Of a stretch of 64,000 bases of DNA, positions 3,137 to 62,929 are shown piece after piece. Source of the stretch: Escallonia rubra (lineage: Eukaryota > Streptophyta > Magnoliopsida > Escalloniales > Escalloniaceae). Below the pieces are notes generated by a model. That model did not search any database, was not told where the DNA came from, and was given only the letters and a program-made list of their open reading frames with translations. Position 1 is the stretch's first letter. Each line of letters starts with the position of its first letter. The translations under genes and the position numbers were made by a program. The stretch lies in contig JAVXUO010001926.1 of assembly GCA_033065855.1 (NCBI GenBank), positions 1 to 64,000 of the forward strand. Direction: 5' to 3'.

Positions 3137-3874
3137 TCACTGTCTCTCAATGTCTTCTGCAATTTCTTCTTGCCCATTTGATTGAATTCGTCGCGACGAT
3201 CTTTCCCTACTAAGCATCCTTCGAAAAGAACTCAATCGAGAGCTCGATCCACTAACCTTAGACGAGGGTTGTGCTGTGGCATCCGACGCTGTACATTCCT
3301 CGCCGGTCAAATTAGAGGTCACGACCTCGAGAGACGGCGGAGCAGAGGGTGGAACACCAACTGCAAGCTCATCAGACGGCTCATTCATTAGCCGCGGCTC
3401 AGCATCCGTGCGACAAATGGGGCACGTTGACTGCGTACTCAACCACTTGTCAATGCACTCTGCATGGAACTTGTGCTTGCAGTTTGGCAAAACCCTGACC
3501 GTTTCACCATCCTCTAGCATGCTCAAACAAACGGCACATTCCATCACTGCGGACCCTGTTTCGCCCTCGGTTTGCTTGAAGACGAAGGATGGGAGTGAGG
3601 AGATGACGAGCGGGTCGAGCCCGGTTTTCGGCTGCTCGCCGGCCTGGACCTGAACGGCTGCGAAGAAGCCTAGCTGGCGGAGTGCGGCTCTGCGGCGGGC
3701 TTGGCGGCGGAGGATATATCTTGCGTAGATGTGGAGGGCGGTGACGATTACGACGACGACGGAGAGGGAGATGATTGCCGTGAGCATGATCTTGCTGTTG
3801 ACATCGTAGGTGTTGCTCGGGGGGCGGTACCGCGGTGGAGGGAAGCCACGATCATCCCTGCCAGACATATCCAT
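3137..3874 (-). CDS. ATL-type RING-H2 E3 ubiquitin ligase (245 aa)
   Basis: Single-exon gene for a membrane-anchored RING-H2 protein of the plant ATL family. These proteins act as E3 ubiquitin ligases, recruiting an E2 enzyme through the RING. A proline-rich N-terminus (residues 10-20) precedes one hydrophobic membrane segment at about 29-50. A basic stretch with many arginines follows at 53-66. The family GLD motif is at 85-87. The RING-H2 spans 113-154 with C113, C116, C132, H134, H137, C140, C151 and C154 (CX2CX15CXHX2HX2CX10CX2C) and the ATL-type CIDKWL segment after C140. The C-terminal third is rich in serine and arginine and is probably disordered. Length and layout fit ATL proteins, which mostly lack introns. 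The start gives a full N-terminus ahead of the membrane segment. Which ATL member it is, and its substrate, cannot be told from here. It is the only intact host gene I see. Confidence 0.93.
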
Positions 3875-4400
3875 GGGTGGAGGGGGCCGGGGGTTTTTGG
3901 TTCCTCAAGGTGGGCGTAGAATGAGTCTTGAACATGATTTTTAAGTTGGGGGAAAGCTTGATTTTTCTCTCATTTCTTGCAATCTGTTGTGTGAACTTGA
4001 CTTCGTCAAGTGCGTAGAGTTCGATCCTGGAAAATGAAGGGGAAACAAGCATGTATATTTCAAGGGGTTTGACTGTTGAATGTTGACTTGCTGCATCCAG
4101 TATTTGTCCTCGATTCAATTTCTTATGATTTACCAACAGAAATTTCTTTGTTTGAAATAGAAGGAACAAAGGAATTTTTCTCTGATTCGATGTATTTTTA
4201 TGGGGTCTTTTACCAACAGAGTTCCCTTTGTTTGAAAATTGAAGGAACAAAGTGCATTTTCTCTTATTTTATTTTCCTCTCGTTTCTTGTTTTATTTGTT
4301 CTTCTTTGCTTTTGGTTGAGAGTTGGCGTGGCAAATATAAAGTGAAGGATACGGCGGGGAAAAAGTCTAAGGGAGAAAAAAACGTGAAAACGATGGGCTC
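3875..4400 (-). promoter_or_regulatory. upstream flank of the ATL gene, candidate promoter
   Basis: This is the 5' flank of the minus-strand ATL gene. I cannot fix a transcription start. A TATA-like word on the minus strand lies near 4333-4342, about 460 bases before the start codon. The most visible structure is a duplicated 54-bp block (4130-4184 and 4210-4264). Its role in expression is unknown. Confidence 0.35.
4130..4264. repeat. two direct copies of a 54-bp block upstream of the ATL gene
   Basis: Copies at 4130-4184 and 4210-4264 begin with TTACCAACAGA, share CTTTGTTTGAAA and GAAGGAACAAAG, and end with TTTTCTCT. They are about 80 bp apart start to start. They differ at a few positions, so they are not sequencing duplicates. 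They lie 255-390 bases upstream of the ATL start codon. Confidence 0.75.
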
Positions 4401-8834: not shown

Positions 8835-9125
8835 CACTACAAGGAATAAGGCTTTTAGCGACGGGAAAATTCATCGCTAAAAGCCTAGATTCCGTCGCTA
8901 AAACTTTTAGAGACGGAATCCCCGTCTCTAAAAGTCTCTCGTATGAAAGGTCGTTACTAAAAGTTTTACGATAGAATTATAAAATCTGTCGTCTAATATA
9001 GAACGTTTGGCAACGAATTTATTTCTAAATTAGCGACGGAATATCCGTCGCTAATTCTATTTTAATTTATTTTCTGTGTTTAAGGAAATTAGCGACGGGA
9101 TAAAAAATTTAGTGAGGAAATTAAT
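8835..9125 (+). mobile_element. left end of a CACTA (En/Spm) transposon; other end not found
   Basis: The stretch begins with CACTACAAGGAATAAGGC, a typical CACTA terminal inverted repeat. It continues with subterminal copies of TTAGCGACGG in both orientations (for example at 8856-8900, 9031-9054 and 9090-9099). This is the same subterminal vocabulary as in the full element at 18159-30454. I could not find a matching right end, so the element is probably truncated. The B3-domain fragment and simple repeats follow directly, which would fit a gene piece carried inside the element, but without a right end that stays open. Confidence 0.75.
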
Positions 9126-9403
9126 CCCTCACTAAAAGTTTATTTATTTTTTAATGCCCAAACCNGCAATAAAACATTCAAACCAATTGGGTCTCATCCT
9201 CCGTCAACAATCTCAATATCTCAAACGCACGATTAACAATCTAATCAATTAATAACCTAAAATCATCGATCAATAATCACAATTATCAAATGCACAATTA
9301 ACAACCTAAAATTATCACACAAATAGTCCATGTTCAAATAACACAAAAATGTACATATCCGATGCAATTAATTTAAAAATATTGTCTATTTACGGCTCAG
9401 AGT

Positions 9404-18155: not shown

Positions 18156-18158
18156 GAT
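18156..18158. repeat. left target-site duplication of the CACTA element (GAT)
   Basis: GAT directly precedes CACTACAAGA and is repeated directly after the right end at 30455-30457. A 3-bp duplication is the CACTA hallmark. Confidence 0.85.
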
Positions 18159-18520
18159 CACTACAAGATAAAAGGGTTTTTTTTGCGATGGACTTTTAGC
18201 GACGAACACAATTTCGTCGCTAAAAGACTCTTTCAGCGACGAAATGGTACGTCGCTAAAAACTTTTACCGACGGGGCAAACCATCGGCAAAAACCTTTAC
18301 CAACGGATTTTTACCAACAGCGTTTTAGCGACTGATATTCCATCGATAAAAGTTTTTAAAAAATTTCCAATTTTCGGCCACTTTTTAAATTTTTTTTAGC
18401 AAAGAAATCACTCCGTCGCTAAAAAAATTTTATCGACAAAATTTTGCCGTCGCTTAAAGTCTAAAAAATTATGACTTTTAGTGACGGACTTTTAGCGATT
18501 CCCTAAAGGTCCTGTCACAA
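18159..18520 (+). repeat. left terminal and subterminal repeats of the CACTA element
   Basis: TIR CACTACAAGA followed by at least eight copies of TTAGCGACG-like words in both orientations, some decayed (for example 18197-18208, 18234-18243, 18477-18491). The unit is shared with the right end and with the truncated element at 8835. Confidence 0.88.
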
Positions 18521-18896
18521 AAGCCACTCTTTCCCATCTTTCCCTCTCCCCATTTTTCTCTCTTTGTCTCTCACTCTCACCCCGTTCTTTTTCCCCTCCG
18601 ATGACCCCCCTCTACGGCGACACCCACCTCCGCATCTCCCAAGTCTCCCCCCCCCCCACGGTCGCGTAACCACTGCCGCCGCACCACCTCATGTATGTCC
18701 ATTTTACCCTAATTTCTTTTAATGCATGTAAGTTTGACTTTAATATAGTGTTACAATTTATAGTGTAATTACATGTTATCTTGAATCTGTTGTAATGTAT
18801 AGTGTAATTGAATTTAATTTGATATACTATATAGTCTAATTGTATGTGGTTTGTCATAATTGCTATAATTGTTATAATGTAAAATTGTAATAGAAG

Positions 18897-19605
18897 TTTA
18901 ATTAACTCTAATTAACTCCTAATTAAGCCATAATTGAACCCGATTAACCCTAATTAGCTCTAATTAGTCCTAATTAACACTAATTTGTCCTAATTAATCT
19001 AAGTAAAACCTAATTAGCCCTAATTAGTATTAATTAATACCAATTGGCCCAAATTAATACTAATTAATCCTAATTAAACCCTATTAACCCTAATTAACTA
19101 TAATTAGCCCTAATTAGTACTAATTGGCCCAAATTAATACTAATTAATCCTAATTAAACCCTATTAACCCTAATTAGTCGAATTAAACCTTAATTAAACC
19201 CTAACTAGCCCTGATAAACACTAAATAAACCTAAGTAAACTCAATTAGCCCTAATTAGAGTTAAGGAACTCCTAATTAACCATAATTAAGCCCTAATACA
19301 TCTTAAAGTAACCCTAATTAGCCATGATTAGACCTGATAAACCCTATTTAAATCATAATTAGCCCTATTTCTTAGCCTCAATAAACCCTAATTAACCTAT
19401 TTAAACCCTAATTACCCTAATTAGCCCTGCTAACCCCTATTAAACCTTAATTAACCATAATTAACATAAATAATCCCTAATTACCCTAATTATGCCCTAA
19501 TTAACTATAATAAACCTAATTAAACCCTAATTGTCCTAATTGAACCCTATTACATCCCTAATTAACCCTTATAAGCCTAAATACAACTCTAACCCTAACT
19601 AATCC
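18897..19605 (+). repeat. degenerate 10-bp repeat array (TAATTAGCCC-type), about 70 units
   Basis: Over about 700 bp the sequence runs in units close to TAATTAGCCC, TAATTAACCC or TAATTAAACC. AATT recurs about every ten bases; the register is nearly exact at 18950-19010. Some units join into AACCCTAA words, but the array is not telomeric repeat. It lies inside the CACTA element between the left subterminal repeats and the hairpin cluster. Confidence 0.85.
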
Positions 19606-20365
19606 GTGAACCCCATCACAATCACATGTGACACAATATTAACTCCGCGAATGAACTCCATATTCTACCGAAAAACGTGAGTCGGCTACCCACATGAGGA
19701 ATACTCGTTGTTATTTTATAAAGTCCATTGACAACGAGTTAGTTACAACTCGTTGTCAACGAATTTGAAAGTGAATCATTTTAGTTATGGCATGTTCTTG
19801 CAAATTAATCTAATGATTCCATATTTCCGAAATTTTGACATTTCGGAAAGATTGTTACATATTACCAATTTTTAAACGCATGCATGCATAAAAACCCTTA
19901 GTTCCCGTTCAAAGATACTCATTACAAAGTAATGCTTTGTAATGAGCCTTTGAATGTCCAGATTGGAAAATTTGGAAAAGCTAATTAAGTGTTTATAAAA
20001 CAATGTATCGACTCATGCTCAGTGTTCTATGTCATGGATATTTGATACACATTTTCCAAAGTTTTTCCAGGTGCATAGAGATCTGGTGTTCTAACATCCG
20101 TTAAATGTTGCAAGAGCAAGATTAGATGGATGTTAGAACACCTAATCGATGTCGTGTACTTGAAGAAATACGAGGAGGTGCTGCCGAATTTTCCGCAGAC
20201 ATATGACTAAGCATGAGTTGATAATTATTTTATAAACATGTGCTTTTCTGAATGGGATATGACCACTACCTATTAGAGAACGAATGGGGGCTATAGACAT
20301 GTTGTCACATGCATGCATTCATTTTCACATCGACCCTACCTAATTATCGATTTTAATTTAAGGTG
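19606..20365 (+). other. gene-free part of the CACTA with a cluster of short perfect hairpins
   Basis: I see no protein motif. Four hairpins stand out: 19728-19740 with 19747-19759 (13-bp stem, 6-nt loop); 19824-19833 with 19840-19849 (10 bp); 19918-19929 with 19935-19946 (12 bp, extended outward after a bulge); and 20085-20099 with 20128-20142 (15 bp, 28-nt loop). Confidence 0.75.
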
Positions 20366-20600
20366 TGTTAACCCTGCGATTATTTAACTTAGGATTATAT
20401 TTGATTTTGATGATAACTAACATTGATGATTATGTTGTCTAACATGTATTGAGTTGTTGAAGCAATATGAACAATCTCATACTCATGCAAACGAACTATT
20501 AGACGAGCAACACGGTCAAAGACTCTCAACGGAACGCATTAAAGAAGGAATTCGTCGATTGAAGTTTTCATGCTTTTATTTCCTTATAGTCCTGGCACAG
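20366..20600 (+). mobile_element. copia LTR fragment (5' part of U3)
   Basis: Begins TGTTAACCCTGCGATTATTT. It matches, in reverse complement, the outer end of the copia LTR at about 38000-38240, including TTTGATTTTGATGATAACTA and CAACGGAACGCATTAAAGA. Fossil piece inside the CACTA, immediately left of the palindrome. Confidence 0.7.
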
Positions 20601-20718
20601 CAGCCAGCGCACACGGTAGAGTACACAAGGGAGTAGATGGATGCGGCCAACCTCCGATCTGCCAACAATCCCTTCCCCAGATACACCCCGGGGACTTGAA
20701 CTCGTGACCTACTCTAAT
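20601..20718 (-). mobile_element. possible tRNA-derived SINE piece
   Basis: On the minus strand the segment starts AAGTGGTATTAGAGTAGG and contains GAGTTCAAGTCCC, which resembles a Pol III B box. It runs into a non-repetitive tail ending near CTGTGCCAGG. This layout suggests a tRNA-derived SINE head. It could instead be flanking sequence joined to the copia primer site, whose sequence looks alike. No target duplication was found. Confidence 0.3.
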
Positions 20719-23700
20719 ACCACTTGAAACCAATAAAATAACCCTAGAGGGGTTGGGTTAATAGGGTTTTAAGACTACTTAAAAAATTAAAAAACAACAA
20801 TCCTCGAGCTCAATAACTTAAATAAGCAAACAACCAATCTTAACACAAATGTAAAACGATAATGTAAAGAAATAAGGGTTTAGAGATACTTGATAAGAAG
20901 AATTAAATGGTTCGGCTTGATATACCCTCAAGCCTACGTCCACCCCTTCAAGAACGTCTCTTGAAAGGCCCTAGAATCCACTAGTATGATCTTCCTTACG
21001 GATCAAGATCGAATCTCTTACAATCCCTTGATGTTATGCCCACATCAAGAACAAGCTTTGACAAACCCAAAGCTCCAAAGCTTGACAACCCCAAGCTTTG
21101 ATACAAGAACCTTTAGATGAAGAAATGTGTACAAGATTTCATTCTCAAGAAGTAGATGAGTACAAGTTTAAGCACTAGAACAAGAGAGATGAGTGTATGA
21201 TGACTTATGAAAGTGTATATCTCGCAAATGTAAGCTCACAATAAATGCTCTCTTGAAATGGATGAGAAATCAATGAAAATCAAAAGAGATTGAACAATTG
21301 CTTTGATCTTTGAGTATACGAAAGATAAGAGAGCTTTGAATGCAATTGATGATTGAAAACTATGCCCAAGATGAGTATTTATAGAGGTGGAAATAAATAT
21401 GACCGTTTGGGGTAGGTGGAGCATTAATTACACCAAAATGGTAAATACAGTCGACTGTAATGCACCATTGCAGTTGATTGTAATCCAATGCAGTCGACTA
21501 CTGTAATAGGCTACTGGAAGTATTGCAGTCGACTGCATTCCAATGCAGTCGACTGTAATACCTCACTGCCCAACTTGCAGTCGATTGCATTCCAATGCAG
21601 TCGACTGCATTCCTGAAAATGCAGTTTCCTTGTTTTTAAAGCATGGAAAACTTTTATGCATGCAAGGGAAACCTATGGGCAAGGATCATGACAAGAAGAT
21701 GATTTGTATGAATGCTATAGCAAAAAATTGTCTTGTGTGTGCTTTAGACACAAATGAACTCAATAGAGTCATTATGTGTAATTCCGCTAAGAGTATTTGG
21801 GATACTCTTCAAGTCACTCCTGAATGGGCTTCTCTTCTTAGAGACTCCAAGATGAACTTATTGTTTAGAGATTATGAGTTATTCCATATGCTTCCAAATG
21901 AATCCGTTACGGATATGAATACTCGTTTTACTAACATTGTGAACCCTTTGAAGCAATTAGGCAAAGAATTCACTAATGGTGATTTTGTAAGAAAGGCGAT
22001 TAGATCCTTACCAAGAGCTTGGGATGCAAAGATCACCGCCATCCAAGAGTCAAAGAATCTCAATATCTTTCCTCTTGATGAATTGATGTGCTCACTCATG
22101 ACGTACGAAATGCAACTCAAGACATTTGATCAAGAGGAAGTCAAGAAGAAGCCTACATCAATTGCTCTTAAAGCTTCATCTTCAAACCTTGAGTCAAGTG
22201 ATGATGATGAAGAATTTGATGAAGAAGATATTGCAATGGTTGCAAAGAACTTCAAGAAGTTCTTAAGATTTAGAATGAATGATGGGAGAACTCACCTTCT
22301 TCCTTGGATTGCAAATCAAACAAAGCAAGGATGGAATCTTTATCAACCAAACCAAATACACCAGAGAGCTACTCAAGAGATTTGACATGGAAGCATCAAA
22401 TGCTTTTGACACTCCAATGATCTCTTCATTAAAGTTTGATAAAGATGAAAAGGGCAAGGATGTTGATATTAAGCGCTATCGAGGTATGATCGGATCACTC
22501 CTTTACCTTACCGCTATCGAGGTATGATCGGAACACTCCTTTACCTTACCGCTATCAAGGTAAAGGAGTGATCCGATCATACCTTGATAGTGCTTAATAT
22601 CAACATCCTTACCCTTTTCATCTTTATCAAGCTTTAATGAAGAGCTCATTGGAGTGTCAAAAGCATTTGATGCTTCCATGTCAAATCTCTTGAGTAGCTC
22701 TTTGGTGTATTTGGCTTGGTTGATAAAGATTACATCCTTGCTTTGTTTGATTTGCAATCCAAGGAAGAAGATGAGCTCTCCCATCATTCCTTCTAAATCT
22801 TAAGAACTTCTTGAAGTTCTTTGCAACCATTGCAATATCCTCTTCATCAAATTCTTCATCATAATCACTTGACTCAAAGTTTGAAGATAAAGCTTTAAGA
22901 GCAATTGATGTAGGCTTTTTCTTGACTTCCTCGTGATCAAAGGTCGTGAGTTGCATTTCGTACGTCATGAGTGAGCACATCAATTCATCAAGAGGAAAGA
23001 TATTGAGATTCTTTGACTCTTGGATGGCGGTGATCTTTGCATCCCAAACTCTTGGTAAAGATCTAATCACCTTTCTTACAAGATCACCATTAGTGAATTC
23101 TTTGCCTAATTGCTTCAAAGGGTTCACAATGTTAGTAAAACGAGTATTCATATCCGTAACGGATTCATTTGGAAGATATGGAATAACTCATAATCTCTAA
23201 ACAATAAATTCATCTTGGAGTCTCTAAGAAGAGAAGTTCTTTCATGAGTGACTTGAAGAGTATCCCAAATACTCTTAGCGGAATTACACATAATGACTCT
23301 ATTGAGTTCATTTGTGTCTAAAGCACACACAAGACAATTTTTCGCTCTAGCATTCATACAAATCATCTTCTTGTCATGATCCTTGCCCATATGTTTCCCT
23401 TGCATGCATAAAAGTTTTTCATGCTTTAAAAACAAGGAAATTGTATTTTCAGGAATGCAGTCGACTGCAAGTTGGGCAGTGAGGTATTACAGTCGACTGC
23501 ATTGGAATGCAGTCGACTGCAATACTTCCAGTAGCCTATTACAGTCGACTGCATTGGGTTACAGTCGACTGCAATGGTGCATTGCAGTCGACTGCATTTA
23601 CCGTTTTGGCGCAATTAATGCTCCACCTACCCCAAACGGTCATATTTATTCCCACCTCTATAAATACTCATCTTGGGCATAGTTTTCATTCATCAATTGC

Positions 23701-24280
23701 ATTCAAAGCTCTCTTATCTTTCATATTCTCAAAGATCAAAGCAATTGTTCAATCTCTCTTGGTTTTCATTGATTTCTCATCCATTTCAAGAGAGCATTTA
23801 TTGTGAGCTTACATTTGAGAGATATACACTTTCATAAGTCATCATACACTCATCTCTCTTGTTCTAGTGCTTAAACTTGTACTCATCTACTTCTTGAGAG
23901 TGAAATCTTGTACACTTTTCTTCATCTAAAGGTTCTTGTATCAAAGCTTGGGGTTGTCAAGCTTTGGAGCTTTGGGTTTGTAAGAGGTTCAATCTTGACC
24001 CGTAAGGAAGATCATACTAGTGGATTCTAGGGCCTTTCAAAGGACTTCCTTGAAGGGGTGGACGTAGACTTGTGGGTATATCAAGCCGAACTATTTAATT
24101 CTCCTTGTCAAGTATCTCTAAACCCTTCTCTCTTTACATTATCATTTTACATTTGTGTTGAGATTGGTTGTTTGCTTATTTAAGTTATTGAGATTGATGA
24201 TTGTTGTTAGTTAATTTTTTAAGTAGTCTTAAAACCCTATTCACCCCCCTCTAGGGTTATTTTATTGGTTTCAAGGTGGT
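20719..24280. mobile_element. palindrome of copia fragments, arms about 1.8 and 1.7 kb, 47-bp spacer
   Basis: The left arm (20719-22509) and the right arm (22557-24280) are inverted copies. Each arm holds an outward-pointing partial copia LTR at the outside, with its TATA-like word (near 21372-21383 on the minus strand, 23659-23666 on the plus strand). Toward the middle each arm holds gag sequence of the UBN2/copia type and a short reverse transcriptase tail (MMGEL, FFLGLQIKQS), reading toward the centre. The 47-bp spacer is itself a repeat of the arm tip. Both arms share the same shortened layout, so they came from one rearranged copy. Fossil, not a working element. The same family lies at 35480-38240. 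Confidence 0.88.
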
Positions 24281-24300
24281 ATATAGTAATCTCAGTTGTC

Positions 24301-26561
24301 ATGTCGGTTGATCAAAGTTGGATGAAAAGAAAAAATGATGATGATTTTGAGGATTGCGTCGACGAATTTCTCGAGTTCGCTTACGCGTCCCGTATATGTT
24401 GACTTTGAAATGATAAGGTGTACGTGTAGTAAATGTGAGTTGTTGTATTAGAGAAGGAGAATGGTGGTAAAATGGCATCTTCTCCGGTACAGTTTTATGG
24501 GTGGATACACAAGGTTGACGCAGCACAAAAAAACGATAGTATTGTCATCCAACTCGGCTAGTCAAACTAAAGTTAGAAAGGAGGCACATTATGATTACCG
24601 AGATATGATTATGGATGCTGGGCATGCTAATGTTGATTGGGGTGACTATCGCGGCAATGACAGTCCTCAGTAGTTGAACGAGGGGGCTAATAAGTTTTAT
24701 GTTTTGTTGAGAGATGCGGAAGAGCCGTTATGGGATGGAATCTGAAAATACACGGCTGTCTGCGGTTAGTAGGTTATTACAGTTAAAATCGGACCATGGG
24801 CTGAATGAGAAAGGATTTAACAAGTTTGTTACTTTTATAAAAAAAATTTTGCCGGAGAGTGAAAAGTTATCCCCATTGTACTATGATGCGAAGAGGATGA
24901 TATGATGAGGAAACTTGGTGAGTGGATAGATGTAACGATTGTGTATTATTCTGGAAAGAGAATAAAGACTTGATGAGATGTCCAGTATGTGATCATTTGA
25001 GGTATAAACCAGACAAAAGGAAGAAGAAAAACATTGCATGGAAGGTATTGCGATATTTTCTTGTTACCCCAAGGCTTCAGAGCATGTACTACTCATCCAA
25101 TATGGTTGAACATATGAGGGCTCTCTATGAGACTCGTAGCAACGATGTTGATGCGCTGACACACCCAGCTGATGGAAAGACGTGGAAGGAGTTTGACCGT
25201 AGGCATCCAAGCTTTGCTTAGGAAGCTCAGAATGTTAACTTGGTTTGGCAACCGAAGGGTTCAATCCTTTCGGACAATCTAGCATGCCTTACTCCACATG
25301 GCCTATTATTATTGTCCCGTACAACCTTCCACCAGGCATATGCATGAAGAAGCCGTACATATTTTTTCATCGCTTATTCTGGGGCTGAAGAGTCCCGATA
25401 AGGACATAGATGTATATTTAAGGCCGTTGACTGATAAGCTCAAGCAGCTTTGGGATCATGGAGTCGAAACTTATGATGCATTCCTTAAGCATAACTTTCA
25501 GACGAGGGCTGCTTTGATATGTACTAAACATGATTTCCCCGCATTGGGAATGACGTGTGGGTGGAGCACACATAGAACGTTAGAATGCCCTGCTTGTATG
25601 GGCGTGAATCCCGGTCATACGTTAAAGCCTAGCCGGAAGCCCTCTGTTGTTCAGATGTCACCGAAAGATTTTGCCACCAGACCATCAATTCAGTAGGGAG
25701 AAGGATAAATTTGATGGGACAATTAAGCGTAAGGTTGTCAAACTGGACTATATCTGGTGAAGAAGTGCTCTCGCACATGAAGACACTTGATACAGACATA
25801 CCATACGGTAAGGGTGTGTCGGATCAAAAGATTCCAAGATATGGAAAAGAGCACAACTGGAGGAAACAATGTATGTTTTGGGAGTTGGCCTGCTGGAGGA
25901 CACTCATTATCAGAAACAACATGGAGTTATGCACATTGAGATGAATGTTTTCGATAATATGTTCAATACAGTGATGAATGTCAAGGAAAAATCGAAAGAT
26001 CACCTTAAAGCAAGAAAGGATCTACAACAGTTGGTGGTATACACCGTGAACTGCATCCTCAGACAGATAGCGGGAGGATGATACTTTCGAAAGCACCTTA
26101 CTGTCTAGACAAGAAACAGGTGAAGAAGGTCTGTTAGTGGGTTAAGAATTTGAAGCTTCCGAATGGTTATGCGTCCAACATATCTCGTTGATGTAATGTA
26201 TCGGAATGCAAGTTCCAAGCACTGAAGAGTCACGATTGTCACGTATTTATGGACAGATTCATTCCTATTGTTTCTGGGGACTGTTGCCAAGGGTTATATG
26301 TGAGACTTTAACTGAATTATCTCATTTCTTTTGGGATATCTGTTCTTCTACAATCCGGGTGAGTAACATGGAGGTGCTTGAGAAGAATGTTATGTTAACA
26401 ATTTGCAAGCTCGAGAAAATCTTTACACCGTCATTCTTTGATTGAATGGAGCATTTGCCGGTTAACTTGGCGTATGAAGCCCGGATGGGTGGGCTTGTGC
26501 AATATCGGTGGATGTATCTATTCGAGAGGTATTGCTTTAACTCTATGTTGTTCGTTTACAG
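24301..26561 (+). pseudogene. TNPD-like CACTA transposase (Transpos_assoc, Transposase_21, DUF4218 parts), degenerate
   Basis: Main transposase gene of the CACTA. The start at 24301 gives the usual MSVDQSWM opening, followed by a cysteine-containing stretch (RCTCSKCELL near 24420) of the transposase-associated domain. The Transposase_21 core lies at about 24714-25696, with LMRCPVCDHLRYKPD, YYCPVQPSTRHMH and ECPACMGVNPG segments. The DUF4218 part is at about 26260-26560 (LTELSHFF, VLEKNVMLTICKLEKIF, MEHLP, YRWMY). In-frame stops (the first near 24400) and frame changes between blocks at about 24700, 24905, 25220, 25700 and 25900 break the reading frame. A GT donor at 26562 ends this part. Confidence 0.88.
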
Positions 26562-27955
26562 GTAATGCAAACACTTTTTATTGATGTTCCACATAACTCT
26601 ATTTGTTAAACTTCTAGGTTCATGTTCCATTTGAAGAAGAAAGTCCGTAATAAAGCTCGTGTTGAAGGCTCAATTGCTGAGGCTTACGTAATGGAAGAGT
26701 TTGAAAACTTTTGTAGCGAATATTTTGGGCCTTTTATTGATACAAGGTAAAATCAACTAAGCCGAAATAAGCCCGATGCCAACACACATTTGGAAGGGCA
26801 ATTGTCAATATTCAAGCAATCAGGTAGTCTGTTCGAACGAACCTGTACTCAGTGGCTAACGGATGTAGAGTACATTGCTGCAACAGTATATGCCCTTCTA
26901 AATTATGATGAAGTTTCAGCATTAGTTAAGTAAGTTTTTGTCTTCAAATAATTATTGTACATAATTGAAAATATGTGATCAGTTGGTTAACTATCTCTAT
27001 TTGCAGTGAGTTCGATGCGGAATCTTTAATCGTTGATCCCGCTAGACTTGAATCTCATCAGAAATCACAATTTGTAGAGCAGTTCAGAAGACGTGTAAGT
27101 TTTTAACCAAAATATACTATATGTTATATACAGTTATGTGGTTTATTAGTATTTTGATTTATCATTAAATTTCACCGTCTTCTATAATAGGTTCAATCAG
27201 TCGATAAACCTGTAGCCTCCTTGTTGAAATTACTAGCTCAAGCCACTAGTAAACAAGCATCCTGACTTGGAGGATATATCATCAATGGGTTTAGGTTTAA
27301 CGTAAAAGATGATGATTGAAGAAAACAAGCCCAAAACAGTGGACTCTTGGTCAAGGGCGACTGTTATGACGAGAATTGCATGGACTTTTATGGAGAGCTG
27401 GATGAGATTGTTGAGCTGACATATTTGGGTTCCCAAAATTTCCTGGTAATATTCAAATGTACATGGTTCGATGTCACATGCAATAGAGAAATCCGTGTTA
27501 GCTCGCAAGGGAATGTAGACGTCAATGTTAAGTCAAAACTTGCATCTGATGAGCCGTTTGTGTTAGCTGGTCAAGCTATGCAAGTCTTTTACGTGGAGGA
27601 CATCGCAAATCCCAAATCTCATTGGTATACATTATCAAGTCCAAGAAATTGCCCATGGCATATGACAGTGAGGTAGATACATTTCCAGCCGACCAAGCAC
27701 CAGTCTTGGTACCTGTTGAGTTGAACAACGAGGATGACGATCTTTTTCTTCAACCAACAGTTGATGTAGGAGAAAAAGTTATAGATTATGACGTGGAAGA
27801 CATAGAAAGTGTTAAAGATGATAAGGCTGAGTCTACTGACAAAGATGATGAATTACTCGATGAAGAGGACGACGAGTCCCAGGAGAAGAGGATTTCGAGT
27901 CCGACGGTGATGATGGCAATGATTCCCAAAATGAAGATGATTGACTTGTACTATT
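26562..27955 (+). pseudogene. 3' exons of the TNPD-like gene with DUF4216 and acidic tail
   Basis: Continuation of the transposase gene with splice signals still readable. There is a short intron at about 26562-26617, an exon with KKKVRNKARVEGSIAEAYV, another intron ending TTTGCAG near 27006, a short exon (EFDAESL, FVEQFRRR), and an intron from GTAAGT near 27094 to about 27190. Next comes the DUF4216 part (GYIINGFRFNVKDDD near 27270, then VKGDCYDENCMDFYGELDEI). The C-terminus (27690-27950) is highly acidic. Stop codons occur within several exons, so this is decayed. Such DUF4216 tails are usual in plant CACTA transposases. Confidence 0.82.
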
Positions 27956-28099
27956 GTAACATGCATTCTTTTAGTACTCGGTTCATATAGTATTTTTATA
28001 CTTAGTCCATATATATACTCGGTTCATATGTATAGTATTCTAACATGTTGTGGGCTATACATTATTTTTAATGTGTTAATTTCTTTGGACTTCTTGTAC

Positions 28100-29850
28100 A
28101 CGAAGTCAGATATGTATAGATTACAGGTCACTCGTGGTTGCAGTGGACGTCGAGTTGCATCCACCTCGTTGCTCTATCCTTGTCATTGCCCGCTGATGAC
28201 GAGGCACATAGTGCTCACATCTAGAAGGCAGGGGCCTAGCCCCAGTCGCTTCCCCTGCCCTAACCTCAGGTTGATTCCTCCCACACGCGCGCTGGTTCTC
28301 CTTCTTCTATGGTTTTACCTCAGGTATATTTGATAACAGCGTCTGGTCATAATGCTCGACTTATATTTAAATTATATTTGAACTGTATTAATGTTGGTAT
28401 TTTTTAGGATCTCGACGAGGTCGTGGACTGACACGCCCCGCACATCGACCCCAAGCGTAAATAGAGAGTTGCTCTCACCCATGAGGGCCAGTAAGTAAAA
28501 AAATTGCATAACGCATTACTTACATTCTTCAATTCCGATAGTTATTACGGTCCACATATTTAATGTATTCGATGTTTGTTTATTTATCAGGATCCTGGAG
28601 ACTCCGGTGAAGAAAAAAATCGGGAGCCTTGTGAATGGCTGATTCTTTGAGCCACGGCTATACTGGAATGACTGGGATGTCGCGATGAGGGAGTCCTTAT
28701 GGGAGTAGTGGCTGGTATGGTTTTTCTTTTTGTCAGTCATTATTTATTTAATTAGAATATAAATTTTAAATTAATCATATTGATTGTGTAAATAGATGCC
28801 TTGTAGGACGGGTTCAAGTTTGAGTCGCCTGAGTAGTGGGCATTGGGGCGGCAGGCTTTTTCTACCTATATCGGTAAAAATTACCGGTGATGGTTGCAGG
28901 ATGCAAGGGAGCGGGCGATGAAGATGCTGCCCGAGGGTGCCCCAATAAGGGAGTGGAAGGGATGGATATCTCTATCTGTATGGGGACAAATGGTTGATCA
29001 GTGGAGGATTGATCCATCCTAGGAGGCCAAAAGTAGGAGTGGGGGAAAGAACAGACATGAGAAAGATCCCATGCACACGCATGGAGGGAGGGGTCGGTGG
29101 CTCACGATGTCCTTCGACATAAGAATACGGTTGAGCACCCGAACCTGATGGCGGATGAGCTCATAGCTCTAAGGAACTGTCAGATGCATGTGAGGAAGAA
29201 GGATACGGACAATGCACATCGGGCAGGGGACTTTGTTTCAGATATTTCCCTGCAGGCCGATGTAAGTTACGAATTAATTTGTTTAATTTTTTCCTTTGTA
29301 TTCGATGTTAGTCGCCTTAATGTTTTAAATGTCAAATCACTGTTTTGCAGGCCTCGTATGAACAGATCATGGGGTCTGGGCAGCAGCCCGGACAACCATC
29401 AGCATTCACAAGTACGGACACAAGTACTGGGGATTGAAGCGATGGCTGGATACACCGAGGGTCGTCAATAGGCCGAAAAGTCGCTTACGCGGCACGTTTT
29501 ATACGACGGCACGTGCCATGATAGGAGCGTCTCTACCCCCTGCTGCCTCTCTATAGACGCAAGCACCGACCTTGGAGCGACTGTCGTTACATGAGGACGA
29601 GATCCGTCGCATTACTGCGGAGGTGTATACGATGATCAGGGCGCATGATCAGGTACAAACACTATATACGTTTACTAAAGACTATATACGATTGCTATTT
29701 TCGAGATTAATGCGTTCGTGCCTTTACATGCAGGCACTACTGCTGGACTTGTCCAGCCGGATATGGATCATAGTGCCCCCGTGGACGGAGATGATCAGCA
29801 GGATCCAGATTCGGGACTCGCCGACTCCTGAGCCCTTCCCCTCTTAGCTA
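28100..29850 (+). pseudogene. TNPA-like gene of the CACTA (Transposase_24 type), degenerate
   Basis: Second gene of the element. Recognisable pieces include RLYWNDWDVAMRESLWE near 28660, PEGAPIREWKGWISL near 28930, a basic RSGGKNRHEKDPMHTHGG stretch near 29040, and a C-terminal LSLHEDEIRRITAEVYTMI segment near 29580. This order fits plant TNPA-like proteins, which bind the subterminal repeats. At least two intron-like gaps are present (about 28735-28800 and 29265-29350, the latter ending TTTTGCAG). Stops and frame shifts show decay. The coding sense matches the TNPD gene. Confidence 0.7.
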
Positions 29851-29871
29851 TTTGTATCGTGCTCCCATCTC

Positions 29872-30454
29872 CCCCCCCCCCCCGACTTGTTAAGAATTTG
29901 TAATTACAGGTTTGTATATTAACACAAATAAAAAAATATTTTAAAAATTCGTTTGACTTTTAGCAGCGGATTTCATTCCGTCGCTAAAAGTCTTAACTTA
30001 TTCTGTGAATAAATGACTTTTAGCAACGGAATTTCCGTCGCTAAAGTTTTAAATGACAGACGTTTAGTGATCGATATTCCGTCGCTAAGAGTCATCAATT
30101 TTTGAATAATGTTTAGCGATGGAACAAATTTATGTCGTTAAAATTTTTGGCGACGAATTTTTTCGTCGCTAAATATTTTACGTAATAAATTATTTTCAAA
30201 AAAAATAAATAAATTATAATACAGAAAATATATTTAGCGACATAAATTTCGTTGCTAATTGTATTAATACTTCCGTCGCTGAAAGTCACCTTTTAGGCGA
30301 CGGATTTCAAATTTTCCTCTCAAAACTTTTAGCAACGGGGTTATAGGCAACGGACTTTTAACGACGGGGTGTCCGTCGCTAAAAGTTTTTAGCGACGGAT
30401 ATAGGGTTTTAGTGACGAAATTGTCCGTCTCTAAAAGTTCTTTTTCTTGTAATG
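29872..30454 (+). repeat. right subterminal repeats and terminal repeat of the CACTA
   Basis: After a short poly-C run (29872-29883) come many TTTAGCGACGGA-like repeats in both orientations from 29955 to 30440. The inverted terminal TTTTTCTTGTAATG ends at 30454. The GAT duplication follows at 30455-30457. Confidence 0.9.
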
Positions 30455-30457
30455 GAT

Positions 30458-31254: not shown

Positions 31255-34125
31255 TGTCACGACCCGAACCCACGGGTAGGCCCGTGAGCTAGATCCGTAA
31301 CCGGCCGCAAACCCAATGGACTTTAACCAAAGGCTCTGCCAGGCCTTTCTATAACTTGTACACAAGAATTTATAACAAAGTAATTTAAATCTATCTCCTT
31401 GATAATATTTCTAAAATCATACTTATAATTTCTCAATAAATCTCCATTGACATTCTTTATTTAACAACTAAGATAAATCATTTTAAATCCGGTGGAGATC
31501 TAAGCTCCAAAAAAATCTCAAATAACAAATTTAGTACTAGCATACCACCTAATGATTTATTAAATAATCTAAGAGGACTACAACTCATCTAGCAGTCGTC
31601 TACCATAATCCTCGTGGTCTTCATTAGTGCCGGTTCCATCTAGATCATCGCCTGAAAAATATTTAAAAGAGTGAGCTTGGGGCCCAGTAAGTACACATAC
31701 CATATCCCTAAAATAGGTTTTGGGATTCATCAAAACATGCCATGGTTTTCTTCGATTTAAAACTGGTAAACATTTTCATAAGAGATACTATACATAAATT
31801 TACTTTATGAAAGCAATTCATCCAAGATTATCATAAACGAAGTACGACATCAAGAAGGCTCATTAACAACTATCACTATTCATCATAACTTAGGTATGTT
31901 GCGGACAACGTACATTCCCTCCTGATTAGAGCTCACAATCCCTACTCCACCCGAGATCAATATTATTCGGTTAGGGTATGCACCCCCTGACTAGGGCTCA
32001 TAATCCCTCCTTCGTCCGAGATACATATTACTGTGGACATAAGGGCGAACCACGAGCAACAGTACTGTGCGTCAACGTATCGTCCCGTTGGCCAGGACCC
32101 AACAGTCCAACTTTCCCCCGTGGATATGGGGTACTACAACCAAGCCAGAAATATCATCTCATTCAACATAAGCCAACTTTAAAACACTACTCATAGAAAC
32201 ATTCCATGGCATATTTGGTGCATTTTATCATCAACCAATTTAGACAAAAGCAGTAGCGTGTGAAAGGCTTTAAAACTTCTAATTTGAACAAATCATTTAT
32301 TCATATACATAGACGGAAAATAGGGTATACGGAGGAATATAGCAAAAGTACTTACCTGGATAGCTAAGCAGTTTTGGTTTTTGTTCCCAAACCTACCCTT
32401 GCTCTTGTCTATCGAAACCAAAACAATAAACAGATGCTCTTTATTGCCGCTCAATCATGACTAGGTGCTAAATTTTCCCCCGAGTGCAGGAAATTGCCAA
32501 AATACTCCTATACTTATGTAAAATTATCAAATTACCCCTGACGCCTAACGTACCGTTACACACCCAATATAACTCAAAACGTCCTTTTAAACAACTAGGT
32601 GGGTTTTTTGGGCAAAAATGGTCTTTATGGGAAATTTTCATTCGGAACCCTAAACCGTTCCTTAAATTGAGTGCTAAGGTTTCTATTCCAAAGTATATCC
32701 AAATGGCAAGAAAATATCTCAAAATTTCAGATGCTCAAGTGTCTCAGTATGTTTAGATCACTGTAAATTTTTTGGCTAAAATTTTTTTTTTTTATTATAT
32801 CAAATAGTTCAAAAGCCTATTTTCAAAATAAGACTGTTTCAGGCATTTTACATGCCTAGAAAAATCCCAAAAATTTCTCCATCAAAGGTTTCACAAAAAT
32901 AAGGCTAGTTTCAGTTTTGCACTTTGCCCAAATATGCTCATAAATGACTTAAAAGTCTTGGGAAACGGAATAATCTATACTTCTAGAAACAACATTTTTT
33001 TTCAGCAAACCCTAGTTTTGGACATTGACCATTTTGAGCCTGAAAAATGACAAATATTTGAAATCTCAAAACTACAAAGTTAAATTAGACTTTCTAAGGT
33101 TTTTAAAAATATAAGGTTCACAAAAATCCGATGAGTAATGACTTCTCTACAGTAAATCGAAGTGGCTGATCAAAATAGCACATCTCTGTGCAGACCAGTT
33201 TTGTTCGATGATTACTTTGGAGTAGAAACACTATGAATCTTAGAAAACTTAAAACTACAAAGTTGAAGAGGAATTTCTAAGGTTTCTAGATATGTAAATT
33301 TTACAAAATTAACATGAGTAATAAATTTTCTATGATAAATTAAAGTGGCAGCCAGAAACAAAAAATTCTGGACTTCTACAGTGAATTGACTTTAAGGTCG
33401 TTTTTCAATATGCAAACGTGGGATTCTGAAAAAACCCAAAATACGACAAAGTTGAATGCGACACAATGAGGTTTTCAAAAAGTATAAAATCATCTCAATT
33501 AATTTGAAATAAAAGAGATATGACAAAAACCCTAACCTACTCTTATGTTGCTCTGTAGCAGCCTTCTTCTCAAACACACCCACAAAAGCTTGCAATTTCA
33601 CAAGAAAAACATATATAACATCCATATTCATGGCTAAACTAAGGAAAGAGTTTAGGGATTTCATTACCTTGAATTTCTCCTTGCCCTAGCTTAGTTTTCC
33701 CCTTCCTTCTCTCTCCTTTTTTTCACGTGAAACAAGGGTTGGCAGATCTGCTAGAACGGCTGCCCTCTTAAGAATTCCTTTATAAATAGTTGCCCTAGGT
33801 TGGAATAATTCTAAAAACCCCCCACACTTAGCTAGTGTTCTTATCTCACCCACATTCCTTTTAAAAGGCCACAATAGTCTTAGATTGAGGTTAAAAATAA
33901 AAATTTCATCGACCAATGAAACATTCAGGGCATTACATTCTTCACACCTCATTAACTTGCAAACTTGAAAGCATTCTTAATGGTCGCTAAAGGTCACAAT
34001 CAATACCTTAAGTGATAATCGTCGCTAAAGACCCCAATTAATGTATATTTCCACAAATGCCACTAAATGAATAACTAAAATTTTAAGATTCACCGTAAAC
34101 CGTATTCTAGGTGCGGGGTATTACA
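31255..34125 (-). mobile_element. isolated long gypsy LTR (about 2.87 kb), likely a solo LTR
   Basis: Ends are TGTCACGACCCGAACC and GGTATTACA on the plus strand, so TG...CA in either reading. It aligns with the LTR at 55291-57466, whose flanking polypurine tract shows that this family reads on the minus strand. A TATA-like word on the minus strand lies near 33780. No internal region flanks it. A 5-bp target duplication is not evident, so the solo-LTR reading is inferred. There is an internal duplication of the CCTGACTAGGGCTCA region near 31920-32020. Confidence 0.75.
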
Positions 34126-35479: not shown

Positions 35480-36966
35480 CTATGAGAGCAAACATGTCAC
35501 CAAATCACAAATATCAAGTTTTAAATATTCATTTTGTTGTTCTAAAGCCAAAGTTTTGCAAAAGATTTGTTTTGAGTTAGGAGTGTTAACAATTAATTCA
35601 ACTAAGTCATTATTCACATGTTTCACATATAAATGGTTGGAAATGCATTCATTCTTAGCATGCAACTCATTATTTTGCATTCTCATCTTCTCTATTTGCT
35701 TATTAGCCTTAAGGAATTTTTTTGACAAAATAATGTTTTTCTTAAAAAATTTCTTGGATTCCTCATATTATCATAAGCATCTTCCAAGCTTTCACTATCA
35801 CTACCGGAAGAAGAGCTTACCTCATCATTCGCCATGACGCACACATTTGCTTGTTCATTCTTCTCATTGTCTTCATCACTTGAATCGGAGTTACTCCATG
35901 TTGGAGTATGTACGGCATTCATTGTTTTTCCTTCTCTTTGTTCTCTTTCTTACATAGTTGTCTTCTTTTAACTCTTTCCCATACATATTTTCTTTCCTTC
36001 TTTTCCTTTTTGTATATGCGACAATCCATCTTCATGTGTGCCGGCTTGTGGCATTTGTAGCAAAGCTTCTCTTCGTTGCTAGCATTTTGTTGTCTTCTCT
36101 CACCATTCCTTCTAAATCTCAAAACTTCTTGAAGTTCTTTGCAATCATTGCAACATCCTCTTCATCAAATTCTCCATCATCATCACTTAACTCAAGGTTA
36201 GAAGATGAATCTTTAAGAACAATTGATGTACACTTCTTCTTGACGTCCTCTTGATCAAAAGATTTGAGTTGCATTTCGTACGTCATTAGTGAGCACATCA
36301 ATTCATCAAGAGGAAATATGTCAAAATTATTCAATTCTTGGATGGCGGTGATCTTTGCATCCAAAGCTCTTGGTAAGGACCTAATCATTTTTCTTACGAG
36401 ATCACCATTAGTGAATTCCTTGCCCAATTACTTCAAAGGGTTCACAATGTTAGTGAAACGAGTATTCATGTCCGTAACGGATTCATTTGTAAGCATTTGG
36501 AATAACTTATAATCTCTAAACAATAAGTTCATTTTGAAATCTCTAAGAAATGAAGTTCCTTCACGCTTAACTTGTAGAGTATCCCAAATACTCTTAGCGG
36601 AATTACACATAATGACTCTCTTAAGCTCATTAGTGTCTAAAGCACAAATAAGACAATTTTTCGCTCTAGCATTCATACAAATCATTTTCTTCTCATGATC
36701 ACTATAATCCGATTTGGATTTAGGCTCCTCAACCTTGTCAACCACCTTCGTCAAAACAAATGGGCCATTCTCAACAATAGCCCACATCTCATAGTCATGA
36801 GACTCTAAGTAAATTTTCATCTTAACTTTTCACACACTATAATTGGCCCCATCAAACAATGGAGGCCTACTGGTAGAACTACCCTACATTCCCCCAATGT
36901 AAGCCATGATCGATTAAGTCTCTTGGCGTTACCCAATATATCAAGAGCCGAGGCTCTGATACCACT
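35480..36966 (-). mobile_element. Ty1/copia relic: primer site, gag and start of pol
   Basis: Fossil on the minus strand. A primer site matching tRNA-Met (TGGTATCAGAGC on the minus strand, about 36952-36963) follows the LTR. The UBN2-type gag region covers about 36820-36120. Next is a CCHC zinc knuckle with CYKCHKPAHMKMDC near 36050, then a linker region down to 35480. It belongs to the same family as the palindrome at 20719-24280. The downstream pol is absent. Few breaks, moderately old. Confidence 0.85.
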
Positions 36967-38240
36967 TGAAACCAAAAAGATAACCCTAGAGAGGGGGGGG
37001 GGGTGAATAGGGTTTTAAGACTACTTTAAAAAATTGACAAGTAATCACTACAAACTTAGAGAAACTATGAAGAATATTAAATAGCTTCAAACAACAAACC
37101 TCAAATACAATATCACAAATAAGCAATCTAACCAATCTCAACACAAGTATAAAACAATAATGTAAAGATAGAAGGGCTTAGAGATACTTGACGCTTGAGA
37201 TTTAGATGGTTCGGCTTGAATTACCCTCAAGCCTACGTCCACCCTTTCAAGGAAGTCCCTTGAAAGGCCCTAGAATTCACTAGTATGATATTTCTTACGG
37301 GTCAAGATCAAACCTCTTACAATCTCTTGATGCTATACCCACATCAAGAACAAGTTTTGACAATCCCAAAGCTCCAAAGCTTGCCAACCCTAAGCTTTGA
37401 TACAAGAAGCTTTAGATGAAGAATTTTCACTCTTAAAAAGTAGATGAGCACAAGTTTAAGCTCTAGAACAAGAGAGATGAGTGTATGATGACTTATGAAA
37501 GTGTATATCTCTCAAACGTAAGCTCACAATAAATGCTCTCTTGAATTGGATGAGAAAACAATGAAAACCAAGAGAGATTGACCAATTGCTTTGATCTTTG
37601 AGTATATGCAAGATAAGAGGACTTTGAATGCAATTGGTAAATCAAAACTATGCCCAAAATGAGTTTATATAGTTGTGGGAATTAATATGACCGTTGGGAA
37701 GTAGGTAGAACATTTAATGCGCCAAACGATAAACGCGGTCGACTATATTGCACTATTCCAGTCTACTGTATTCCCAAAGTAGCCGTTGGAAATTCAAATT
37801 TTCCAATTGCAGTCGACTTTATTTCAATGCAGTCGATTGTAATAGGTTACTAGAAGTATTGCAGTCGACTGCATTCCAATGTAGTCGACTGTATTCCAGA
37901 AAATGTAGTTTTTCGTGTTTTCAAAGAGTTAAAAAGTTTATGCATGCAAGGGAAACCTATGGGAAAATTCTAGGTCACAGTCATCGATACAATCAACTCT
38001 CTATGTCTAGTTACAAATAAATGAATTAAAAGCTTTGTAAAAATCAAACGAAGTATTCCATCTTTAATGCGTTCCGTTGAGTGTCTTTGATCGATTTGTT
38101 CGTCTAATTGTCCATTTGCATGAGTATGAGATTGTACCTATTGATTCATCAACTCCATGCATGTTAGACAACATAATCATCAATGTTAGTTATCATCAAA
38201 ATCAAATATAACCCTAGGTTAAATAACCATAGGTTTACCA
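36967..38240 (-). mobile_element. 5' LTR of the copia relic (about 1.27 kb)
   Basis: On the minus strand it runs from near 38240 (TGGTAAACCTATGG, compare TGTTAACC at 20366) to GGTTTCAAG at about 36967, where the primer site begins. A TATA box on the minus strand (TATATAAAC) lies at about 37672-37680. A cluster of TGCAGTCGACTGCA-type palindromes sits just upstream of it at 37735-37900. Confidence 0.75.
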
Positions 38241-43855: not shown

Positions 43856-45136
43856 TCTATATAATATATAATAAGCGAAGCGAGAAAGGTATTGATAACT
43901 TCTTTACGCGACACATCATCGCTTCTTTATATGACACGTCGCCTTATTTTAAGATTAATTAACTTCTATATTAGTAAGTCTTATTTAGTTCAAAAACTAA
44001 TTCTAATGATTCTAAAATTCTACCTTCTTTTTTACAATTATGTCCTTAAAATTCGAAAACTAATCCTAATCATTCTAAAACTCAGCCTTATCACTTATTA
44101 AGACTTAATATTGACTATTATATCTTCCAAATTACTATCTAATACGAATATAAAAACTCATATATATAAAAAATGAAAATAATACTTTTGATTTAGAAGA
44201 AATTTTTTTAATTTTAAAACTAATTCTAATCATTCTAAAACTCTACCTAATCAATATACTAATCTATTAAGACTTCATTTTGATAATTATGTCCTTAAAA
44301 GTGTTTTCTAATATGAACTTAAAATCCATAGACCCAAAAACTAACTTACGAGATTTAAAATAAAAACGTGATCTAATAATTACTTTTAAATTTTTGATAA
44401 GATCCTCATTTTTATATATAATTAATTTTGCAGGAGTAATGAGGTTTTCTGTAAGCCCTATATAACACGAAAATGATACTTTTACGAGACTTAGAAAAAG
44501 CTAACAATTGATTTGAATTTTGATAAGTAGTTTAGTTTTAAATTTGATTAATTTTGCAAGAATAATGAGGGTTATATAATTTAAAAACTAATTCTTAACA
44601 TTTTAGAACTCAAAATAATCAATATACTAACATATTTTGACTATTGTATTCTTAAAACTACTCTTTAATGTGAATATAAAAAATTCAAATATAAAAAAAA
44701 CAAAAATAAAATATTAGATTTAGAAGGAAAAAAAATTGACATTCTAATTGAGTTAAATGTATTATCATTATTCATATATATATATATACATAGATATATA
44801 TGTAATATACAAAAAATACTCATTGCTAAAAATGAATAATGTAATTATAAGTCAGCATTGTTAAATAAGATCTCACGACCACCAAATTGGTTATATCCCA
44901 TATATAAGGATTTAGAAAACAACTAAAACTCTTTACTGCGATTTAATGCTGAAAAATTTGTGGTATAATTGTCGCGATATTTGTAAACCTAATAAATCTA
45001 AAAAAATCCATTGTACAATGTTTAAACTCTATGCTACATACATATATTTACGTATTAGGCTTTGATTTTTACTATTAAAACCTTGATTACATTGTCATGC
45101 AATTCTTGCGCAATATTTGCATATAGAGGCAAATAT

Positions 45137-45310
45137 GTTTGCTTTAGTTCCTTTGAACTATAAGTTGAAAGAATAATTAGTAGATTGTGTTACAGTACCG
45201 CTTGACGATGTAAAAGAAAAGTTTAAAGAGTGCAAAAATCTAGCGACGACACTGAAACACAATCCACTAATTATTCTTTAAACATACAGTTCAGAGGATC
45301 TAAAGTAAAC
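45137..45310. repeat. long imperfect hairpin, arms about 54 bp, loop 65 nt
   Basis: 45137-45190 pairs with 45256-45310. Matching parts include GTTTGCTTTAG with CTAAAGTAAAC and GAATAATTAGTAGATTGTGTT with AACACAATCCACTAATTATTC. Mismatches are scattered, about one in seven or eight. Confidence 0.85.
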
Positions 45311-45370
45311 ACACACACACACACACACATATCTATATCTATATCTATATATATATACACACACACACAG
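45309..45370. repeat. compound CA and TATC microsatellite
   Basis: (AC)n, then ATATCT repeats, then TATATATATA, then (AC)n again, directly after the right arm of the hairpin. Confidence 0.9.
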
Positions 45371-47504: not shown

Positions 47505-48813
47505 GCCAATATAGTAACCTATTATGTCTTTATTTGAATATTATATGTCGAAAAAGATCTAACATGATATATTGACATGTAAAACAAAAATTCCCTAAGA
47601 GATTTAATGAGAAAAATTAGATACTATTTTAAATTCATATTTAAGTTTTCTGTAAATTCAAATATGAATTTAACTTGATTAATATGTTGGTTAAAAATTT
47701 TGGTCAATAATTTCTTTACTCTAAGGTCTTGCGCTATCCTATTTAGTCGCATTGGTTAAAGATAGAAATACCATAATATGCAGATTCTATATGAGATATA
47801 TTTAAAAAAATAGTGTAAATTTAAAACCTTAATTATGAGAGCATTTCTTAAATTCAACTAATTTTATGTTGAAAAAGTTTTGAACCAAATTTTTTCTATG
47901 GTATTTTTAATGTGAGCAATTAAACTCTCAAACATCCTAAATTCTGCATTAGCAATATACCATTTATGATTTTAGCTTAATTTTTGTAATTCTGAATAGA
48001 ATTGCATAGAAAATCTAAAAATATATTAGTTATGTTGTGAGGAATGTAGACTAAAACTTATATTGAAAAACTTAATAAGCATGCTTATTGTATACTTTGT
48101 GAAATGTTGGTTGAATTTTGTTCACTAATTTTCTTGCTAGGTTTTGAGCTATCCTATATAATCATGTTGATTAAACTTTATAAGCTTTACATGATTACCT
48201 CATGCACTGATTACTATTTTCTCTCTATACTTTGTTGGTAGATTACACTTGCTTCTAAAAATACAACATCATCCTTACTTAATTAGTCGTGTTGATTTAC
48301 TTTTATAAATCACATGTTATAAACAAATATATGGACTAATATTTTCTCTATCAAAATTAAACTAATATGCAATCCATTCAAATGTACAAATTATTTTTAA
48401 AAGATACTTAGCAAACAATTAAAATGTCTTGTGTAATAGCAAATTAATCTCAATACTTTCTCCACATATTTTTATCAGTAGAATTTACTTTTTCTTTTTT
48501 GTGTACTAAATACATTTTGTTCATCTATATAGTTACCAAATTAAAATTAACAATATGTACAAGGACATTACTTATTAATATTTTACCAGAAGGGTTAGTT
48601 TATTTTATTACAAGAAAATTCAAGTCAAAAATTAAAGTAACTATATTTAATGAAATAACCATAAAATTATAAAATTGTACAATATATTTTATTATGCTTT
48701 TCAAAACTACTAAAATAAATTACTATTAATAATATGTCCCGTGCTTGGCACGGGATTCTGGGCTAGTAACCAAGAAATCATGTAAAGACGTAAGGAGCAA
48801 AGATTAATATGAG

Positions 48814-59427: not shown

Positions 59428-59592
59428 TATAGGTTTAAACTCCTGTAGACTTATATGCTTAGGATCAGATAAGTTGTGAGATGGGTAGGATGGGTAGATT
59501 TAAGTTTATTGTCCTAGTCAGTATCTGATTCTAGTTTTTCTTTTGTAGTAATGGCGAGTGGCCGTAATAATAGGTGAGGTAACAATCAAAAT

Positions 59593-62600: not shown

Positions 62601-62929
62601 GAAGAGCACAGGAAACCTAGCAGCACTTATCACCTGTCAACCTCAATTATTAGAAGACATGAAGAACCTGGATCTGGAGATCAGATGGCAAGATGGTGGA
62701 GAGTACTTGGCTGCATTGCAGGTACAACCTACCTTGATTAACAGGATCAAGGAAGCTCAAGATGGAGACTCTGGTCTAGGTCGCATGACCGATACCATTA
62801 ACAATGGAAAACAGTCTGAGTTAAGAGTTGATGAGCACGATGTAGTTTGGTTCCATAAGAGACTTTGTGTACCACCAGATATGTCCTTGAGGAGGGAATT
62901 ATTGTCAGAGGCTCATAACTCTGGTTTCT

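Follow-up and report, generated by a model that had tools for sequence, protein, structure and literature searches.

The locus examined here raises the question of how two long, inverted stretches of a copia-type retrotransposon came to face one another inside a DNA transposon of Escallonia rubra, and whether the resulting palindrome acts against its own family. The window, that is, the whole stretch of DNA that was analysed, is 64,000 nucleotides (nt) long. A sequence-only reading of it had proposed, at 20719-24280, a palindrome of copia fragments from which a silencing hairpin RNA might arise. Along the window, we distinguish the following features.

18159-30454, plus strand: host CACTA (En/Spm-type) DNA transposon, from its terminal repeats, GAT target duplication and subterminal repeats
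20366-24273, no strand: apparent rearranged copia-type LTR-retrotransposon insertion holding the palindrome, from its AGGTG flanks and homology to the relative at 35.5-38.2 kb
20366-20585, plus strand: start of the 5′ LTR (U3), sense, truncated (20365-20585 against 38241-38020, 85.6%)
20586-20711, no strand: segment without match, absent elsewhere in the window by self-BLAST
20712-20722, minus strand: primer-binding-site-like sequence TGGTATTAGAG, adjoining the left-arm LTR end and aligning with TGGTATCAGAG of the relative
20725-21682, minus strand: left-arm partial LTR, pointing outward (left), from homology to the relative
21684-22290, plus strand: left-arm gag fragment, inward (PF14223, 9.1e-24; 89.0% to 36700-36095)
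22282-22524, plus strand: left-arm end of the reverse-transcriptase domain (PF07727, 6.3e-06, below cut-off), joined to gag by an internal deletion
22474-22562, plus strand: 38-bp tandem duplication, 2.3 copies, at the palindrome turn in the left arm
22534-22547 and 22557-22570: innermost perfect stem, flanking the 9-nt loop
22548-22556, no strand: loop at the turn, 9 nt, between the innermost stems
22557-22799, minus strand: right-arm reverse-transcriptase end (PF07727, 3.9e-05, below cut-off)
22777-23381, minus strand: right-arm gag fragment, split into two open reading frames (PF14223, 1.2e-10 and 1.6e-10; 88.6% to 36096-36700)
23383-24273, plus strand: right-arm partial LTR, pointing outward (right), from homology to the relative, with TATAAATA at 23659-23666
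24301-27990, plus strand: CACTA transposase gene, decayed into several separate frames, with a putative start codon (ATG) at 24301
35480-38240, minus strand: relative of the same copia family, with 5′ LTR, primer-binding site, leader and gag (PF14223, 2e-15), 3′ part missing

The inverted arms were confirmed by an inverted-repeat search, by BLAST and by MAFFT alignment, and lie at about 20725-22547 and 22557-24274. They differ at 73 of 1717 aligned columns, plus indels, in the MAFFT alignment and share 1657 of 1801 positions, gaps included, by BLAST; the inverted-repeat search resolved them into ungapped blocks of 619, 447, 294, 273 and 94 nt at 92-99%. When the whole window was searched for inverted pairs (12-nt seed, at least 60 nt, within 4 kb), six of the seven pairs belonged to the palindrome, which argues that it did not arise by chance. 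The seventh, at 45136-45311, has 61-nt arms at 87% and is possibly a small transposon. The spacer of 47 bp previously placed between the arms is made up of the 9-nt loop and a 38-bp tandem copy that lies in the left arm. A match to MIR7526 (RF04214) at the turn, with an E value of 6e-12, was rejected as a homologue: at 62.3 bits on the plus strand and 43.7 bits on the minus strand it falls below the Rfam gathering score of 110, both strands matched, and it rests mostly on pairing without base identity.

Palindromes with a perfect turn are a known artefact of chimeric long reads, and an inverted chimera produced during assembly or cloning was considered as the source of this one. Against this stand the 73 substitutions, indels of 41, 20 and 3 bp among others, and changes private to each arm; as the two arms carry distinct substitutions and indels, an assembly artefact appears unlikely, and among all the explanations weighed here we give an artefact of either kind the least credence, next to none.

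From the outside to the centre, each arm consists of an outward-pointing partial copia LTR, a gag fragment and the end of an RVT_2 domain, the last two reading inward. Self-comparison and domain matches thus bear out the anatomy proposed earlier, with partial LTRs directed outward and gag inward. Copia gag is clearly present in the insertion (PF14223, 9.1e-24), whereas the C-terminal part of RVT_2 (PF07727), although found in both arms, reaches only 26.4 bits on the left and 23.8 bits on the right, below the cut-off of 31.6. The insertion matches the relative at 35.5-38.2 kb at 89% in gag, 79% including gaps in the LTR part (20712-21682 against 36954-37966, 78.9%) and 86% in the U3 start. The left-arm LTR carries TATAAATA on the minus strand at 21376-21383. 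An open frame of 291 amino acids at 21510-22385 begins in the LTR repeats and continues through the left gag fragment; in principle, it could yield a truncated Gag product. A search for relatives of gag in viral contigs returned 18 stretches matching the pattern, none of which was confirmed. Elsewhere, the window has two copies of a repeat at 31255-34050 and 55291-57274 (79-86%), the first with about 0.8 kb extra between its halves, a LINE-like frame with zf-RVT at 46194-47540 on the minus strand, and, at 59578-62943 on the plus strand, three frames that cover gag, protease, reverse transcriptase and RNase H of Ty3 type; a frame for a RING-H2 protein lies at 3140-3904 on the minus strand.

The location of the palindrome inside a CACTA transposon, as first proposed, was confirmed by the ends of that element, its target duplication, its subterminal repeats and its transposase domains. 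The terminal inverted repeats are CACTACAAGATA at 18159 and, on the minus strand and one base off, CATTACAAGAAA at 30454, and they are flanked by a 3-bp GAT duplication at 18156-18158 and 30455-30457. Repeats resembling TTAGCGACGGA occur 23 times in the window, against 0.44 expected with at most one mismatch, and cluster subterminally, with 6 at 18196-18488 and 10 at 29977-30434. Domains of tnp2-type transposases (PF02992 Transposase_21, 1.8e-28; PF13960, 5.6e-08; PF13952, 1.2e-19) are encoded on the plus strand between about 24.9 and 27.7 kb, and a weak match to PF13963 Transpos_assoc (14.1 bits, E 0.053, below cut-off) coincides with the putative start. The palindrome sits between the CACTA left end and the transposase coding region. 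About 67 loose copies of the 10-bp unit TAATTAACCC fill 18899-19580, also between the left end and the transposase gene. A left end at 8835 was considered for its 69% match to the right end and rejected, its flank being ATA and not the GAT found at 18159. The sequence there (8835-9140) is a second CACTA-type left end, with 6 of the 23 subterminal repeat matches, 69% similarity to 30457-30141 and no GAT flank, and is probably the remnant of a related CACTA element.

Rather than the loose copia fragments described before, the LTR ends and short repeats at the edges of the locus suggest one rearranged insertion. On the left, an LTR start (TGTTAACC) begins at 20366, directly after AGGTG at 20361-20365; on the right, an LTR end, GGTTTCA, finishes at 24273 and is followed by AGGTG at 24274-24278. 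The element would thus run from TG at 20366 to CA at 24272-24273 between two copies of a motif whose frequency in the window is 0.0008-0.0009 per base, an arrangement that resembles the outcome of copia integration with duplication of a 5-bp target. The insertion begins further left than the arms, at the LTR start, and ends 27 bases upstream of the putative transposase ATG. The segment at 20586-20711, which separates the U3 fragment from the left arm, is GC-rich and contains, by eye, a string resembling a tRNA T-arm.

The right edge has a competing reading. Its flank also resembles the primer-binding site beside the left-arm LTR, with an anchored score of 16; of 6000 random flanks, one scored as high. 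The right arm may therefore continue beyond the end of the LTR, and the agreement in AGGTG may be fortuitous. The target duplication and the similarity to a primer-binding site cannot both be fully right. We prefer the target duplication because it accounts both for the halt of the right arm at the LTR end and for the apparently greater divergence of the outer LTR; the partial LTR of the right arm probably forms the insertion's 3′ LTR end. Two full direct LTRs, a primer-binding site, a polypurine tract and a complete pol were not found together in 20366-24273. What it contains is a 5′ LTR fragment, an inverted LTR and the deletion between gag and reverse transcriptase, and by its sequence it is a rearranged copia remnant. 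As a whole, the palindrome is best read as a single rearranged LTR-retrotransposon insertion, as these features suggest.

Two junctions, that of the deletion between gag and reverse transcriptase and that between LTR and gag, are common to both arms. Because they are shared, one arm is, on this sequence evidence, a copy of the other, and the internal deletion, like the inversion that affected the LTR part, would have preceded the copying. In the account that we favour, and hold with moderate confidence as a whole, a copia-type retrotransposon that had already lost most of gag-pol, gag being joined to the end of reverse transcriptase, would have inserted into the CACTA element just upstream of its transposase coding region. 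The 5′ LTR and leader part of the insertion would later have been inverted, and a break near the centre would have been repaired by fold-back, with one arm copied; the copying would have ended by joining the homologous 3′ LTR, so that the LTR end and the target duplication were kept. The palindrome would at present be mainly a passive scar of rearrangement. The sequence analysis establishes the palindrome itself, the common junctions, the LTR termini, the AGGTG repeats, the CACTA host and the folding potential described below, whereas the order of events and the repair mechanism, like transcription and siRNAs, are what we infer from them. By eye, no microhomology able to prime the fold-back is visible at the turn. 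Self-integration made by the integrase was considered and rejected, since the inner junction of LTR and gag falls within the LTR and not at its TG end.

The divergence between the arms bears on this history. Fold-back repair leads one to expect more mismatches in the outer LTR, because the outermost right part would be the original 3′ LTR, and 22 of 292 positions differ there, against 51 of 1425 in the rest (Fisher P 0.004, for a data-derived boundary). Significance is lost once the best change point is sought along the alignment (permutation P 0.10), and when divergence from the relative is used to control for rate, the difference is borderline (P 0.047-0.050, rising to 0.08 against gag alone and 0.13 against the inner LTR alone). 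Jukes–Cantor (JC) distances between the arms are 0.033 in the inner LTR and 0.034 in gag, which would correspond to about 1.3 million years if 1.3e-8 substitutions per site arise each year. The relative allows 56 of the differences between the arms to be polarised; C>T or G>A accounts for 34 of them, an uncontrolled share that is compatible with a methylated, silent locus.

These observations also bear on two other origins. The palindrome could have formed before integration, by template switching during reverse transcription, and the rearranged cDNA could then have inserted as one piece. In its favour, both LTR termini and the AGGTG repeats lie at the outer edges, the arms end near the starting region of reverse transcription at the LTR end and primer-binding site, and deletions such as that between gag and reverse transcriptase are common products of template switching. 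Such an origin, however, would have all arm segments diverge equally, whereas the outer LTR looks older, if not significantly so after the search; moreover, a normal cDNA carries two complete LTRs, and of the 5′ LTR just a fragment is present. On balance, we consider it unlikely. Far less probable still is that the same deleted element inserted twice, independently and in opposite orientations, and that the copies were trimmed by deletion. Although the window contains another member of this family, two insertions would have had to bring identical junctions together within 9 nt at the same point of reverse transcriptase, and just one flanking pair of AGGTG is found. We retain fold-back repair of a single insertion as the preferred origin.

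As first suggested, RNA spanning the locus has the potential to form a very long double-stranded hairpin. The predicted fold of 20366-24273 reaches -3002 kcal/mol, far below the -941 to -970 kcal/mol of four dinucleotide shuffles; of the 1789 pairs predicted, 1667 link one arm to the other, and the longest helix without interruption spans 106 bp. Dicer-like enzymes could cut a hairpin RNA of about 1.7 kb, if one were transcribed from the CACTA left end or by any read-through, into siRNAs matching its own copia family. Silencing by the palindrome is, on this modelling, possible, and in its strongest form it would make the locus an active silencer, transcribed across both arms and acting in trans on the family, as in the model proposed for Mu killer of maize. 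The near-perfect duplex, in which the arms have 703 distinct 21-mers in common (95 of them also exact in the relative), speaks for this, as does the position of the palindrome in the path of a transposase transcript, because a transcript starting at the CACTA left end would cross it before reaching the transposase. Against it stand the LTR TATA boxes at 21376 (minus) and 23659 (plus), which face away from the centre, in agreement with the outward LTR promoters noted before, and from which transcription would thus not cross the palindrome; the right-hand one faces the transposase gene. At 20732, 21240 and 21392 the left arm carries AATAAA motifs that could stop read-through short of the second arm, and the transposase gene is decayed. 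The nearby target for silencing named at 35480-38240 is indeed a family relative, but a diverged one, truncated to a 5′ LTR and gag fragment, to which 146 of 2801 distinct arm 21-mers match exactly; no exact matches occur in the rest of the window.

Known systems cut both ways. Maize has 28 hairpin siRNA loci, and in its pollen 22-nt siRNAs are directed against Copia and CACTA elements, according to the accessible text of PMC11390486, a precedent in favour of active silencing. The Mu killer comparison, offered by the sequence-only reading as the classic case, holds for the likeness of the loci but is weaker than was claimed: in the accessible part of PMC3440606, read-through sense transcripts are described in plants that fail to silence, and silencing plants have short antisense transcripts from an internal promoter, a pattern that puts the classic hairpin read-through model in dispute. 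With read-through unaccompanied by silencing even there (PMC3440606), we regard an active silencer in E. rubra as doubtful. A more specific version, in which the CACTA element carries an anti-retrotransposon hairpin in the leader of its transposase gene, and its activation leads to siRNAs that silence the copia family, strikes us as quite improbable; if true, one element would police another.

The palindrome nevertheless belongs with transposon-derived long inverted repeats, among which natural hairpin siRNA loci are already known (PMC11390486, accessible text). A long inverted duplication of a transposable element, which marks Mu killer-type loci, is present here. As far as the available text goes (PMC3440606, with Slotkin 2003/2005 as cited there), Mu killer is likewise a natural inverted duplication, internally deleted and about 4 kb long, in which the element promoters at the two ends point outward and a hairpin RNA has been proposed; it differs in deriving from MuDR and lying between host genes, whereas here a retrotransposon is nested in a transposon and known from its sequence alone, and the central turn, sequenced here, resisted sequencing there. 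Tpd1 and the other pollen loci of maize resemble the palindrome as long, near-complete inverted repeats, and part of a 4,480-bp hairpin precursor is shown for them, but they were discovered through 22-nt siRNA reads and the palindrome through sequence (PMC11390486, same portion). The antisense nested EVD (copia) of Arabidopsis, suggested as a putative LTR hairpin source, similarly has LTRs of one copia family in opposite orientations at one locus; its LTRs, however, stem from a nested second insertion and lie 1942 and 2562 bp apart, whereas here a single rearranged insertion turns within 9 nt (PMC11624286, in the text available). Fold-back templated inverted duplications at DNA breaks offer a parallel for the inverted copy and the synthesis proposed here, although those of yeast are very short, most about 5-34 bp, against an arm of about 1.7 kb (PMC11724301, available portion). 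Hairpin-like structures are frequent in Copia LTRs, as stated in the accessible text of PMC10760457. Word searches of the open-licence literature found no LTR palindrome inside a CACTA element, which is not proof of absence.

Hairpin loci built from pieces of transposons have been proposed, with others, as the first sources of siRNAs directed against transposons, and few have been resolved through the turn. The palindrome of E. rubra is sequenced through its centre, and its junctions suggest in what order the events took place, along with a candidate promoter path. Taken alone, the locus informs on structure and not on function, and it provides a concrete locus to which small-RNA data can be brought.
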